Shown here piece after piece: positions 4,475 to 13,183 of a stretch of DNA of 64,000 nt. The stretch is from Promineifilum sp. (GTDB taxonomy: Bacteria > Chloroflexota > Anaerolineae > Promineifilales > Promineifilaceae), in assembly GCA_017983515.1 (NCBI GenBank), contig JAGOBF010000008.1:62001-126000 (forward strand). Reading direction: 5' to 3'. Numbering within the stretch: the stretch's first letter is position 1; every line of letters begins with the position of its first letter. Made by a program: the position numbers and the translations under genes. The notes under the pieces are model-generated. The model did not search any database. It saw only the letters and a list, made by a program, of their open reading frames with translations, and was not told the origin of the DNA.

Positions 4475-7387
4475 ATGTCCGCCTCCGACACCGAAGACCT
4501 ATCAGCAGCAGACCCTAAATCCTATCACCTGTCCGGCGATTTTCGGGGGGCGATTGTCAACATCGAGTCGACGTTCGTCAACTCGTCGGCCGTGCAGGAT
4601 ATCGAGGGGCTGCCGCCGGAGCCGGGCAATCCGCCCTATAAGGGGCTGCAATATTTCGACGAGGCCGACGCCGAGCACTTTCTCGGCCGCGAGGCGCTGA
4701 CGGCGCGGCTGTCCGAGCGACTGCGCGAGACTCGCTTCCTGGCGGTCATCGGTGCGTCGGGCAGCGGCAAGTCGTCGCTGGTGCGCGCCGGGCTGGTGCC
4801 CGCGTTGCGGCGGGGCCAGCCGTTGGCCGACGGCGCGCTGCCGCCCGCGGGTTCGGATCAATGGCTCATCCGCGTTCTGACCCCCACGACCCACCCGCTG
4901 GACGCGCTGGCCGTTTCCCTGTTGCCCGACGCTGAGCCGGCGGCCGTGACCGCGCTGCGCGACCGGCTGGCCGCCGAGCCGGGGGCGTTGGCCGCCGTCG
5001 CGCCCGACCTGCTGGGCACGGCCCACCCCCAACTGTTCCTCGTCGTCGACCAGTTCGAGGAACTCTTTTCCCTCACTCGCCACGAAGAGGAGCGGCAAGC
5101 GTTCATCGATAATCTGGTGTCGGCCGTCACCGGCGACGCGCCCGTTCGGGGCGTCATCGTTCTGCGAGCCGACTTCTACGATCGCTGCGCCCAGTACGAG
5201 GGGCTGCGCGAGCTGGTGTCGCGCCAGCAGGAATACATCGGCGCGATGAGCCGCAATGAGCTATTTCGGGTCATCGTGCTGCCCGCCGTCCGCGACAACT
5301 GGAAGATTCAGGAGGGACTGGTCGATCTGATGCTCGACGACGTGGGCGATGAGCCGGGGGCGCTGCCATTGCTCTCCCACGCCCTGCTGGAGACGTGGCA
5401 GCGGCGGCGCGGCCGCACGATGACCCTCTCCGGATACAAGGAGTCCGGCGGTGTGCGCGGAGCCATCGCCAAGACGGCCGAGACCGTTTTTCGCCAGCGG
5501 CTGACGGCCGCCCAGCAGCCCATCGCCCGCATGATCTTTATGCGCCTGACGGAGTTGGGCGAGAGCGCCGACAGCGACACGCCCGACACCCGCCGCCGCG
5601 CCCTGTTCAGCGAACTCATCACCCGCTCCACCGACACGGCCACGCTGGAGGCCGTGCTCAGTATTCTGGTCGATTCGCGCCTGGTGATGACCGATTTCAT
5701 CCCGCCGGGCGAGATCAAGGTCGTTGAGGTGTGCCACGAGGCGCTCATCCGCGAGTGGCCGACGCTGCGCGACTGGTTGAATCAGGATCGCCAGGGGCTG
5801 ATCCGCCATCGCCAGTTGACGGCCGACGTTAACGACTGGCTGAATCTGAATCGCGACCCCGGCGCGCTCTATCGCGGGGCCAAGCTGGAGCAGGCGCTGG
5901 CCTGGACGGCCGATCCGCCTGACCCGCTGAGCGTGGCCGAGACCGAGTTCCTCGACGCCGGCCGGGTGGCGGTCGAGGAAGAAGCGCGCCGCGCCGAGCG
6001 TCTGGAGCGGGCCGGGCGCAACCAGCGCATTCTGATCGGGTTGTCGGTCTTGTTGCTACTGGGCGTGGTCGCCGCCGTTCTCTACAGTCAGGGCGTTTTC
6101 AATCCGCTGGCGGAGACCATGACCGGAGATTTCAAAGTGGCCGTGGCCGAGTTCGCTGTGCTCGACGAGGCCGGCCGGTTGACCAGCGGCGACGGCGGCC
6201 GGCGCATCGCCGAGCGGATCGGCAGCGATCTGGCCCTGGAATCCAGCCTGGACCTCAATGTCTGGTTTGACGGCCCGGCCAGCGAGCCTCACGTGCCAAT
6301 CGGCGTCGTCGGCGAGGGTATCGAAGGCGCGGTAGAGCCGGCGGAGCGCGCCGAGCAGCTCGATGCGGACATGATCGTCTACGGAACGGTCGAGCCGGAC
6401 GGCGACCACGGCACGCTGACAGCGCGCATCTATGCCCGGCCGTTATTCGGCCAGGATTTCAGCCGGGTCATCGGCAATTATGACCTCGTGTCTGGCATCC
6501 CCGTTTTCGACCTGGCCGATCCGAGTACCGAGGTATGGCAACGACTCGACCCTTATGCGCGCGCCGCGGCCCGCCTGATGCTGGGTCTGCGTTTGCAGCG
6601 GCTGGGCGACGAAGAGATCGCCCTGAGCCACTTTGAGCGCGCGGTCGAGCTTGTGCCCGATCTGGAGATCGCCCACTACTTCATTGGACAGGGCAACCTT
6701 TATCTGGCCCAGCAGGACGGGGGCGTCGATGCTGAGCGGCTGGCCGCGGCCGAGTCCGCCTTTGCCCGCGCCCTGGCGATTAACGCCGACAACGCGCGGG
6801 CGCAGATCGGCGCGGGCAGTATCCATTATTTGCGGGCGCAGGCCCAACTGGACGCATCGACGGCCGAAGACTTCACCGGCGACCGTGTGGTGGCCGTGGG
6901 GGACGCCGTGACCGAGGTCGAGCTGGCGCTGCAAACCTATGAGCCCATCGCCGCCGGGCCGGAACAGCTCGATATCTATGGCGTACCCATTGCCAGCCTG
7001 GCTAATTACGAGGCGGGGATCGCCCTGCGCTTGCTGGCCGACGCGCAGTATCGTCTGGGGTCGGTCGATGCTGCCCAGGCGGCCGTCGACGAGGCTATCT
7101 CGCGCCTGACGTCGACCCTGGGGCCACTGGTGGCCTCGGGCAACTATCGCCAGATCGCTCAGGCCCATCAGGCGCTGGGTACGGCTTACGAGTGGCGTGG
7201 ATTTTTATTGGCGGAGGGCGGCGACCCGGCCGCGGCGGCCGAAGCCTACGGGCTGGCAATTACCAGCTACGAGGCCTGTGCGGCCGTGCAGGAGCAATTT
7301 CGATTCGATTTTATGGTGGACACGATTGTGGGAACGTTATGCCGGCCACGCATCGAAGCGCTAAAGCAGTTTGCGGGAGGTGGATGA
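4475..7387 (+). CDS. Membrane-spanning STAND NTPase with extracytoplasmic TolB/FlgO-like and TPR domains
   Basis: A 970-residue protein. An N-terminal segment of about 50 residues (SGDFRGAIVNIES at 20-32) precedes an nSTAND1-type P-loop module starting at the YKGLQYFDEADAEHFLGRE motif (55-73). Walker A is GASGSGKSS at 93-101, Walker B LFLVVDQFEELF at 187-198; a helical STAND extension runs to about 490 (CHEALIREWPTLRDWL at 420-435). A charged stretch and one hydrophobic helix (about 518-537) follow. The C-terminal half starts with a TolB/FlgO-like alpha/beta domain (about 551-660, ADMIVYGTVEPDG) and ends in TPR-like helices (about 690-960). With Arg-rich flanks N-terminal to the helix, the NTPase should be cytosolic and the TPR half outside. 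STAND proteins are signalling or defence switches; the ligand is unknown. It shares a base with the next start region, so the two are probably co-translated. Confidence 0.85.
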   Translation: MSASDTEDLSAADPKSYHLSGDFRGAIVNIESTFVNSSAVQDIEGLPPEPGNPPYKGLQYFDEADAEHFLGREALTARLSERLRETRFLAVIGASGSGKSSLVRAGLVPALRRGQPLADGALPPAGSDQWLIRVLTPTTHPLDALAVSLLPDAEPAAVTALRDRLAAEPGALAAVAPDLLGTAHPQLFLVVDQFEELFSLTRHEEERQAFIDNLVSAVTGDAPVRGVIVLRADFYDRCAQYEGLRELVSRQQEYIGAMSRNELFRVIVLPAVRDNWKIQEGLVDLMLDDVGDEPGALPLLSHALLETWQRRRGRTMTLSGYKESGGVRGAIAKTAETVFRQRLTAAQQPIARMIFMRLTELGESADSDTPDTRRRALFSELITRSTDTATLEAVLSILVDSRLVMTDFIPPGEIKVVEVCHEALIREWPTLRDWLNQDRQGLIRHRQLTADVNDWLNLNRDPGALYRGAKLEQALAWTADPPDPLSVAETEFLDAGRVAVEEEARRAERLERAGRNQRILIGLSVLLLLGVVAAVLYSQGVFNPLAETMTGDFKVAVAEFAVLDEAGRLTSGDGGRRIAERIGSDLALESSLDLNVWFDGPASEPHVPIGVVGEGIEGAVEPAERAEQLDADMIVYGTVEPDGDHGTLTARIYARPLFGQDFSRVIGNYDLVSGIPVFDLADPSTEVWQRLDPYARAAARLMLGLRLQRLGDEEIALSHFERAVELVPDLEIAHYFIGQGNLYLAQQDGGVDAERLAAAESAFARALAINADNARAQIGAGSIHYLRAQAQLDASTAEDFTGDRVVAVGDAVTEVELALQTYEPIAAGPEQLDIYGVPIASLANYEAGIALRLLADAQYRLGSVDAAQAAVDEAISRLTSTLGPLVASGNYRQIAQAHQALGTAYEWRGFLLAEGGDPAAAAEAYGLAITSYEACAAVQEQFRFDFMVDTIVGTLCRPRIEALKQFAGGG

Positions 7388-8433
7388 TGAAAAGGTACGC
7401 AACGGTTCTGTTTGTGCTCGCGGGAATACTCCTGATTGTTGCCTGCGGCGGCGGCGAAGGGGCTACGCCCCAGCCGACCGGGGTCGAGGACGAGATCGCC
7501 GGATCGGTGCAGCAGACGGTGGCGGCCATTGCCGTGGCCAAGACTGTTGCCGCGCTAACCGGCGGCACGGCGACCGCGCCGGCCGACTTGCCGGCCGTCC
7601 CTACCCCGGTCATCACGCCTTCGGACGCGCCGCCGGCGACCGCGGCCGCGCCGGACGCCGACACGCCACCCCCAGCCACCGCGCCCCCGGCCGCCTCGGC
7701 CACCGCCGCGCCATCCTGCACCGTCGTCTCCGGCGTCAATCTGCGCGGTGGGCCGGGCACAATCTATGATCCGCCAGTCGGCTTCGCCGCGGCCAATACG
7801 GCCCTGCGACCCCTGGCCTATACCCCTTTCGGCAACCCGCAAGGGGCGTGGCTCCTGGTGGAAGTGGCGGGCAGCGGGCAGCAAGCCTGGCTCAGCGCCG
7901 GGGCGCAATTCGTGCGCTGCTCGGTCGACCCGGCCACGCTGCCGCCGCCGGCCAACGTGCCGGCCACGCCGCGGCCGGCCAACACGGCCACGCCGACGGC
8001 CACCGCCCAACCGGTCGCCGCGCTGCCGCCCGATTTGCGCAATGTCAGCGGCGGGGCCGGCTGCCTGGACGATCCCGACATCCAATCCAACTTTCAGACC
8101 GACTCGCGCTTTCTGCTGCGTATCTACGCCCAGCTCTTCAGCCCTCCGCCGGACGAGTCGGGCGACGGCGCAGGCATCGAGCGGGTGGAGTTCTTCGTCC
8201 GCGAGAGCGGCTATAGCCACACCGAACGCACCGCCGGCTACTGCATCTTCCAGGGCGGCGAGCCGACCTGCCGCGACTGGCCGCGCGACCAGCTTGGCCG
8301 GCTCACCTGGGGCGATGGCGGCCCCGTGGTCGTCGATGGCAATTACAATATCGACGTCAACGTCTTTCCCAAAGAAGACACGTTAATCTCCCAATGTAAC
8401 TGGACGATTAGCCTGACGGTGGACGTACCCTGA
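7387..8433 (+). CDS. Lipoprotein with SH3b-like domain
   Basis: A 348-residue predicted lipoprotein. The signal peptide MKRYATVLFVLAGILLIVAC ends at Cys20 (lipobox IVAC). A Pro/Thr/Ala-rich linker (about 80-118) leads to an SH3b-like domain at about 119-185 (VVSGVNLRGGPGTIYD, then WLLVEVAGSGQQAWL). A second P/T-rich linker and a C-terminal domain of about 130 residues (about 218-348, several Cys) follow; I do not recognise that domain. The start is taken at the second ATG (7387) because GGGAGG at 7375-7380 then has 6-nt spacing; ATG at 7384 is the alternative. It overlaps the stop of the STAND gene, suggesting an outer-face partner of that protein. SH3b domains often bind peptidoglycan or peptides. 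Confidence 0.8.
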   Translation: MKRYATVLFVLAGILLIVACGGGEGATPQPTGVEDEIAGSVQQTVAAIAVAKTVAALTGGTATAPADLPAVPTPVITPSDAPPATAAAPDADTPPPATAPPAASATAAPSCTVVSGVNLRGGPGTIYDPPVGFAAANTALRPLAYTPFGNPQGAWLLVEVAGSGQQAWLSAGAQFVRCSVDPATLPPPANVPATPRPANTATPTATAQPVAALPPDLRNVSGGAGCLDDPDIQSNFQTDSRFLLRIYAQLFSPPPDESGDGAGIERVEFFVRESGYSHTERTAGYCIFQGGEPTCRDWPRDQLGRLTWGDGGPVVVDGNYNIDVNVFPKEDTLISQCNWTISLTVDVP

Positions 8434-11459: not shown

Positions 11460-13109
11460 TTATTGCCCCGGTAAGGTGCCGACGACGTTGAACGTATTCA
11501 GGATATGGTCGAGCGCGTCCAGATCGGCGTCAGAGACGACCTGCACCTGAACGAGGACGGAGTAGTTTTGGGCCGCCGGTTCGGCCGCCAGCACGATGAT
11601 CACGCTACCGGCATCACTGCAGTTCGAATACATGTCGTAATGGCCGGTATAAACCGGGTCCGAATAATCGGAGCGGCCGTCATAGGTGCAGTCGGACGAG
11701 TAATCGACCAGGTCAAGCAGATCACTCATGGCCGTATCGCCAAAGTAGGCCCCAGCCAGAATCTGCATGCCGGGCGTCGAGTAGGTGGTGTTGTATCCTT
11801 CGATGCTGGGGGAAGCATAGAGGGAACTGCCGAGAACCGTCCCGTCGTCGCCGATCCAGTTGGTGCCGTCGACGTCGGCCCACTCGGCCGGCACTTCGAC
11901 ATAGATCGCCTGGGAATCGTCGTAGATGCCGACGTAATTCTGGTACGTTGTGGCGGTGTCGCCGCTGCCGGCCGCAGCCTCTTCGTCCACTTCAACCGCC
12001 TGGGCAAAGGAGAAAGACTGCTCCAGCTCAGGGCCGTTCAGTTGCCCCTCGAGCACTTCCTGCGTCGCGAAGCGCAACACTTCGATGTTCATCGGGTCGG
12101 TGGCGTTGCGGCTGCGCAGGATGTCGCAATAGTCGGCCATGGTGCCGTCGGTCGACAGGACGAGGCCCTCCAGCTTGGTGACGATATCGCCCGCTTCGAC
12201 GCCCACTTTGTCGGCCGGGGAACCGGATTTCACGGAGGACACCCAGATGCCCGTGTCGCCTTGTTCGGTGACGACTGCTTCGCCGTTGATGCCGATAGAA
12301 TCAAGATCGGTGCCGGCGCGCAATTGCTCCACAACCCGGCGCGCATCGCTAGCGCTGATGGCGAAATACTGGTTGGAGCTGGACGAGCCGGCGTAGTTGA
12401 CACCGACGACTTTACCGTCGGTCGATACCAGCGGCCCGCCGGAGTTGCCGGGGTTGATGGTCGCGTCATGCTCCAGAACGTTGTTGACCGAGGCCCAGCT
12501 CGTCTCGCCGCCGGCTTGCGCCTTGGAGATGACGCCGCGGGTCAGGGTCGGTTCGGGATCGCCCAGCGGAAAGCCCAAGGCATAGACTTCGGTGCCCAGG
12601 TTGACCGGCGTGGTGTTCCAGTCCAGGAAAGGATAGCCGTCTCCTTCGATGTCGATGACGGCCAGGTCGTTGCACTCCGACACGCCCAGAATCTTGGCGT
12701 TCATCGGCTGATCATAGCCCTGCACAAAGACCTGCATGAAGGCCGCGCCGGTGACCACGTGATTGTTGGTGACGGCGATGCCCGATGGGTCGATGATGAA
12801 GCCGGAGCCGCGACCGGCCGAGTTCAGCTGCATACCGAACTCAGGATCGATAAAGCTGCCCTGCGCTTCGATCTGGACGGTGGCGTTGATGGCGTCCTGG
12901 AAGCTGGTGGCCGCTGTCGGGCCGGACGGCGTGGGCTCTTCGGTGGGGGCCGGTGCCTGGGTAGGCTGCTCAACTGTTTCTGTGGCGGCGGCCGTGGCCA
13001 CAGGCTCGATAGTGACTTGAGCCTGCTCTTCCTCTCCGCCTCCACAGCCGGTCACTATGCCCACCAATAAAATCGCTAACAATAAAATAGTTAAACCATG
13101 CTTCTTCAT
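11460..13109 (-). CDS. HtrA/DegP-type serine protease lipoprotein with extra C-terminal domain
   Basis: A 549-residue exported protease. The start is set at 13109 because GGAGGT lies 5 nt upstream and the product then begins with a lipoprotein signal peptide (MKKHGLTILLLAILLVGIVT then GC, lipid Cys22). A P/T/E-rich linker leads to a trypsin-like domain with His117 (TNNHVVTG), Asp148 (CNDLAVIDIEG) and Ser223 (NPGNSGGP), a complete catalytic triad. A PDZ domain follows at about 275-350. The last 155 residues form a separate domain (IYVEVPAEWADVDG, four Cys) resembling the PsbP/Mog1-like fold; this last point is a weak inference. Role: quality control outside the membrane. It is divergent from the sigma factor gene. 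Confidence 0.9.
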   Translation of the reverse strand: MKKHGLTILLLAILLVGIVTGCGGGEEEQAQVTIEPVATAAATETVEQPTQAPAPTEEPTPSGPTAATSFQDAINATVQIEAQGSFIDPEFGMQLNSAGRGSGFIIDPSGIAVTNNHVVTGAAFMQVFVQGYDQPMNAKILGVSECNDLAVIDIEGDGYPFLDWNTTPVNLGTEVYALGFPLGDPEPTLTRGVISKAQAGGETSWASVNNVLEHDATINPGNSGGPLVSTDGKVVGVNYAGSSSSNQYFAISASDARRVVEQLRAGTDLDSIGINGEAVVTEQGDTGIWVSSVKSGSPADKVGVEAGDIVTKLEGLVLSTDGTMADYCDILRSRNATDPMNIEVLRFATQEVLEGQLNGPELEQSFSFAQAVEVDEEAAAGSGDTATTYQNYVGIYDDSQAIYVEVPAEWADVDGTNWIGDDGTVLGSSLYASPSIEGYNTTYSTPGMQILAGAYFGDTAMSDLLDLVDYSSDCTYDGRSDYSDPVYTGHYDMYSNCSDAGSVIIVLAAEPAAQNYSVLVQVQVVSDADLDALDHILNTFNVVGTLPGQ

Positions 13110-13183
13110 TCCTGACCTCCAATTGAGTTGTAGCGAAGCCTCCAAATTGCGATGTCGATGACCTTTTGTCGCATTTCCGCGGC

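Follow-up and report, generated by a model that had tools for sequence, protein, structure and literature searches.

What does a bacterial STAND protein with a predicted transmembrane helix do when its gene overlaps a lipoprotein gene? The question is raised by a gene pair in a 64,000-nucleotide stretch of Promineifilum sp. (contig JAGOBF010000008.1, positions 62,001 to 126,000), referred to here as the window. An open reading frame (ORF) at 4475-7387 encodes a STAND protein of 970 amino acids (aa) and is followed at 7384-8433 by a gene for a lipoprotein of 349 aa; all parts of the pair described below lie on the forward strand. The initial annotation had proposed this ORF and an overlapping next gene, and both are present. 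We consider that the pair is probably an outward-facing envelope alarm receptor that fires interchangeable death or defence effectors, a reading based on sequence comparison.

The STAND protein combines an nSTAND1 NTPase domain, a single predicted transmembrane helix and an outer alpha/beta and tetratricopeptide repeat (TPR) half, the layout of a putative receptor-switch protein. Pfam family PF20703 (nSTAND1) matches it with 411.7 bits against a curated cut-off of 27.1 (E 5.9e-123, positions 1-378 of the 379 in the model). The domain covers residues 54-462 (4634-5860) and has intact Walker motifs (Walker A GASGSGKS at 93-100, Walker B-like FLVVDQ at 188-193), which bears out the nSTAND module with a Walker A motif claimed earlier. 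By this match the protein belongs to the nSTAND1 NTPases, with NTP hydrolysis as a predicted activity. The helix, previously placed at about 518-537, is predicted at residues 519-537 (6029-6085; best 19-residue core, mean hydropathy 2.79) and is also seen in the structure model. Because six K/R residues occur in the 15 residues preceding it and none in the 15 following, the protein is predicted to have its N-terminus inside and its C-terminus outside. The initial annotation had regarded a STAND protein split across the membrane as exceptional, which did not hold: a helix following the NTPase is predicted, by hydropathy, in 23 of 23 nSTAND1 paralogs sampled in the order, none of which has this outer half. 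Such a split is thus ordinary in this family, and we rejected it as the novelty of the locus. A second nSTAND1 protein in the same genome (G000:C13, L077:6611-10243, reverse strand; 1210 aa) has an EAD7 N-terminus and a predicted helix, with no adjacent lipoprotein gene.

Of the 55 other genomes of the order, 10 contain orthologs of the window STAND protein, which have 44-75% identity and keep its architecture. The lipoprotein gene follows in all nine orthologs whose contig continues (the L071 contig breaks off after the start of the lipoprotein gene; L073 stops within the STAND gene and was excluded; L070 was left out of alignment A1, having N in its DNA). The two outcomes that had been set against the original proposal, a segment that is not transmembrane and relatives in which the genes do not co-occur, were not seen, since the helix is predicted in all examined orthologs and the genes do co-occur.

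The outer half extends beyond these orthologs. Scanning genomes with the outer half yielded 18 loci, and when the class was searched with an outer-half profile, 213 of 396 genomes had a match at E 1e-5; many of these matches were to TPR only. Matches covering only the TPR positions (about 140-290) were not accepted as outer halves, and 40 full-type loci were fetched from among the class matches beginning no later than profile position 6, of which they are a subset; a predicted helix precedes the outer half in all 40. In a phylum sample of 400 genomes, six had the outer half at E 1e-15, and all six belong to the class of the window's organism. A script found a gene with a lipobox next to the outer half in 28 of the 40 fetched loci and 16 of the 18 loci of the first scan, or 41 of 54 unique loci (four loci are common to both sets, three of them positive). 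The controls gave 0 of 21 for nSTAND1 genes without the outer half and a background of 17 of 243 for genes in general. Counted in the 41 is L162, with a doubtful lipobox in a membrane-anchored protein, and the 54 include L244, which lies at a contig end. L093 and L095, likewise at contig ends, are outside the 21 controls, and controls L087, L092, L099 and one gene of L094 have no following ORF within the limits. The adjacency persists when the inner half differs. Judged from this pattern, the outer half travels together with the lipoprotein as a portable unit, which is the unusual feature of the locus. In an alternative reading, the outer half serves to anchor or scaffold, the lipoprotein shares the operon by chance and nSTAND1 senses a cytosolic signal. 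The general presence of helices after nSTAND1 speaks for it, but a lipoprotein adjacency of 41/54 against 0/21, kept with a changed inner half, makes this explanation very improbable.

The inner slot holds different modules in different loci. Among the loci scanned with Pfam, it contains nSTAND1 in L153, L157, L215 and the orthologs, TIR_2 in L165 and L227 (L165 is an Acidimicrobiia metagenome-assembled genome and may be misbinned), DUF4062 in L164, EAD1 in L163 and L228, EAD7 in L224 and L239, and Pkinase (a Ser/Thr kinase) in L162, the one kinase case seen. CHAT is fused in the inner slot of six loci (L219, L226, L229, L231, L232, L246; Pfam). Many other outer-half loci have a short inner tail (Pfam was run on part of these), and directly upstream of seven of the short-tailed loci (L220, L225, L234, L235, L236, L241, L245) lies a gene for a CHAT protein, four with TCAD2. 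We take the CHAT and TCAD2 of these loci to be parts of conflict systems. Caspase, TIR and the EADs are given as such parts in the excerpted texts of two studies (PMC7159879, PMC8195603). By these assignments, the inner modules appear to be mostly parts of bacterial conflict systems. The initial annotation had offered either the passing of an envelope signal or a role in defence; the defence option gains support because the inner domains are swapped (CHAT, TIR, DUF4062, EADs), while the housekeeping genes around the pair in the window speak against it.

The lipoprotein gives this unit a putative contact with the cell wall. Its signal peptide contains the lipobox LLIVAC, with Cys 21 (7444-7446) invariant in 14 of 14 aligned rows. 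Residues 109-182 (7708-7929) form an SH3b-like domain of the wall-binding type, the model of which matches the wall-binding SH3-like domain 8b2f (Z 10.1, 71 residues, 2.1 Å), so that the earlier description of the next gene as an SH3b lipoprotein stands. No Pfam match was obtained for the window lipoprotein at E 1; SH3_3 was called in related lipoproteins (L155, L156, L164) and fell below the cut-off in L069. LysM replaces the SH3b domain in G014 (L074), a TIG domain is added in L152, and the lipoprotein is copied in tandem in G035, G034, G014 and G039. The conserved C-terminal beta-sandwich domain (residues 217-347, 8032-8424), with the signature YCIF(G/Q)GGEPxC, has only weak beta-sandwich fold matches (Z 6-7). 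NCBIfam gave no useful name for either member of the pair.

The outer half of the STAND protein was modelled with a mean predicted local distance difference test (pLDDT) score of 88 as an alpha/beta part followed by a TPR superhelix. The superhelix (residues 685-967, 6527-7375) matches LGN-type TPR proteins (Z 18.9, 243-246 residues aligned, root-mean-square deviation 3.5-4.1 Å). The alpha/beta subdomain (residues 549-677, 6119-6505), which begins M-T-G-D-F-K-V-A-V-A, has no identified fold. Within residues 549-690, the FlgO profile matched 1 of 18 relatives (E 0.003) and not the window copy, and a PDB profile search with the same residues gave no match below E 0.35. Of the TolB/FlgO-like plus TPR half described initially, the TPR part is retained, and the TolB/FlgO label is at best tentative, the Pfam and PDB profile searches having given nothing firm. 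The fold search was barely a test of the alpha/beta part, because TPR proteins fill its VIA list.

An SH3b or LysM domain on the lipoprotein would also suit envelope housekeeping, with the pair monitoring wall growth or envelope stress, the NTPase tuning physiology and the inner modules acting as ordinary signalling outputs. The Ser/Thr kinase in the inner slot of one relative fits this explanation, as do the neighbours, which in the window are housekeeping genes (Mnh antiporter, with MnhG directly upstream, and DinG), DinG being found downstream of the pair in genus relatives as well. Set against it are the CHAT, TIR, caspase, EAD1/7/8, bDLD1 and TCAD2 modules, compared with a single kinase, and we regard it as unlikely, though not negligible.

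How the receptor would reach its effectors is suggested by its N-terminus. Residues 15-38 (4517-4588; KSYHLSGDFRGAIVNIESTFVNSS) form a candidate homotypic docking motif, the GDFRGA motif, which recurs in likely partner proteins. Neither this motif nor the replacement of the cytosolic half as a whole had figured in the initial annotation. It is present in the window gene and in orthologs L067, L068, L070 and L071, and in the others the N-terminus is exchanged (EAD8 in L069, EAD7 in L072 and L075, bDLD1 together with the motif in L074). Pfam detected no EAD on the window STAND protein at E up to 1. The motif is rare (8 of 298 class genomes). In four of four orthologs outside the family (L153, L154, L155, L215), it is carried by a small protein encoded directly upstream of the STAND gene, with gaps of 12, 7, 0 and 115 bases, respectively. 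This protein has 126-127 residues (187 as called in L155) and comprises the motif and the same helical tail as the caspase cassette described below; one copy weakly matches the candidate defence model PDC-M14B (PADLOC, E 1e-6). In the window no motif partner adjoins the STAND gene, whose upstream neighbour is MnhG.

In four of four genus members that have both genes and a motif-bearing STAND protein, the motif also occurs in a caspase gene that is unlinked to the STAND gene. The caspase is a Peptidase_C14 protein with the Cys and His motifs SGHG and DCCHAG, and scores 99.3 bits against NF047832 (caspase_w_EACC1), below the 140-bit cut-off. An EAD7 protein adjoins it in three of the four genomes (the contig of G039 ends inside the caspase), and both proteins terminate with the motif and a helical tail some 100 residues long. 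In G033, where the STAND protein has EAD8 and not the motif, the caspase (61% full-length identity) and the EAD7 protein also lack it, with flanks that align. By eye, a second and a third motif are common to short-tailed receptors and small upstream genes (L212, L213, L237, L243, L247, L076, L244); these are glycine-rich (GDxIIANVGxGAxDVxVGKNI and YHVNVGSNARxVVVGxNIVQIG), and their sharing suggests the same matching-motif wiring.

A caspase-like partner with Cys and His motifs could also serve developmental or altruistic cell death in filaments, in which the receptor reads contact with or damage of a neighbouring cell and triggers caspase-type self-digestion. The genus is Promineifilum-like, which we take to be a filamentous group. 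Nothing in the data separates this explanation from defence, but an effector variety including TIR and DUF4062 is more typical of anti-invader systems, and we consider filament death improbable.

Some observations concern the same gene families. EAD8-trypsin genes are present in G033 and also in the window's genome, where G000:C23 encodes an EAD8-trypsin protease (L287:3386-4624) beside a second EAD8 match; EAD8 matches occur in six of eight genus genomes. G033 has a second caspase-like gene (L139:3631-4530) with stop codons in the matched region. An NNH5-type NACHT-helical protein of G037 (L135:3919-5190) has a GDFRGA variant before its ATPase. The G039 contigs of L129 and L071 both end in the peptide CLLYTSPSPRDRTRSRMPSSA, which we presume to be leftover sequencing adapter, and the ORF ends there are therefore not real.

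Taken as an alarm receptor, the pair may work as follows. The lipoprotein would sit on the outward side of the membrane and contact the cell wall through its SH3b domain. Together with the alpha/beta-TPR outer half of the STAND protein it would act as a single sensor of an envelope event, candidate triggers being damage to the wall, attack by phages or predators, or a ligand. The signal would pass through the single helix to the cytosolic nSTAND1 NTPase, which would oligomerise and thereby gather the N-terminal GDFRGA motifs. These could dock with, or act as templates for, their counterparts in partner proteins, namely, in distant orthologs, the small helical protein of the adjacent gene and, in genus members, the caspase-like protease with the EAD7 adaptor. 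The recruited effector would then kill or arrest the cell. The architecture, the conservation of the gene pair, the exchange of inner modules and the sharing of the motif are observed, whereas the topology, contact between the two proteins, the trigger, homotypic docking and death of the cell as output are inferred from the anatomy of the proteins.

Several points weigh against this reading. The script found no lipoprotein gene in 13 of the 54 outer-half loci, one of which is at a contig end and three of which (L154, L156/L216, L243) have a gene that is lipoprotein-like by eye, failed the script and was left uncounted; several script-negative loci have another exported protein next. For the covariation of the motif across three genes there is a single genome, G033. 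Neither a caspase nor a second copy of the motif was found in the genome of the window itself, which is 68.6% complete; the motif occurs there only in the STAND protein, and G014 likewise has it in its STAND protein alone. The pair lies among housekeeping genes and not in a defence island, and PADLOC gave only short P-loop matches for the STAND protein and nothing for the lipoprotein. No relatives of the pair were found in viral contigs, and its carriage by a phage or prophage was rejected on this ground.

Amyloid signalling motifs (BASS) in bacterial NLRs have reportedly been described by Dyrka et al. Animal Toll-like receptors combine an ectodomain and one transmembrane helix with a cytosolic TIR domain. 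The latter arrangement recurs in L165 and L227; we claim no homology of the ectodomains, and here the inner part is exchanged and a lipoprotein co-gene is present. The EAD-linked nSTAND1 conflict systems (PF20703; Kaur et al., 2021, PMC8195603) have, in the excerpted text, the same NTPase family and N-terminal EADs exchanged with effectors and adaptors, but their sensor is an FGS domain, whereas here it would be the outer alpha/beta-TPR half with its dedicated lipoprotein gene. The EACC1 two-gene system (2020, PMC7159879), as far as the excerpt goes, is alike in having two genes, one transmembrane helix, caspase and EADs, and a proposed sensing near the membrane. In that system the 3' gene encodes the caspase effector and EACC1 is short, whereas the 3' gene of the pair encodes an exported lipoprotein, not a caspase, and the transmembrane protein has a large ectodomain. 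Bacterial NLR amyloid signalling (PMC8086366, in part) may be comparable in that a short motif is common to the N-terminus of an NLR-like protein and a helical protein encoded beside it, as in the four distant orthologs; in our case the motif is N-terminal in the small partner. By analogy, the pair may resemble the EAD-linked STAND conflict systems in its working and, in part, the amyloid-motif NLR pairs. We file the window protein as nSTAND1 only, because it has no EAD and the amyloid likeness is by analogy. A unit of ectodomain and lipoprotein is not described in the excerpted texts of PMC7159879, PMC8195603, PMC10907252 and PMC8086366.

More tentatively, and with somewhat less confidence than doubt, we suggest that the pair belongs to a class of bacterial transmembrane immune receptors that has yet to be described. 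In this class, an ectodomain that stays constant would read the envelope with a lipoprotein co-receptor, and an exchangeable cytosolic half (STAND NTPase, TIR, CHAT protease, kinase, DUF4062 or death adaptors) would be wired to effectors by matching motifs, in a prokaryotic parallel to Toll-like receptor logic. Sensing by most NLR-like and effector-associated bacterial defence proteins is generally placed in the cytosol. If the suggestion is true, bacteria also possess immune receptors that face the envelope and share a front end, set before TIR, CHAT, STAND or kinase modules. The exchange of the inner half would then lend itself well to experiments, with different assayable outputs behind one and the same outer half and lipoprotein, and the shared motif would predict effector partners from sequence alone.

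At the junction of the two genes, which reads GGAGGTGGATGATGA, the start of the lipoprotein is therefore ATG 7384, within the STAND stop; the genes share four bases (ATGA), and GGAGG sits just 5' of the overlap. A GTG ORF at 7192-8433 is in the same frame as the lipoprotein gene with an earlier start. Near the pair, on the reverse strand, an HtrA-like trypsin-PDZ protease with a lipobox-like start is encoded at 11460-13145 of the window and stays nearby in L068 and L069.

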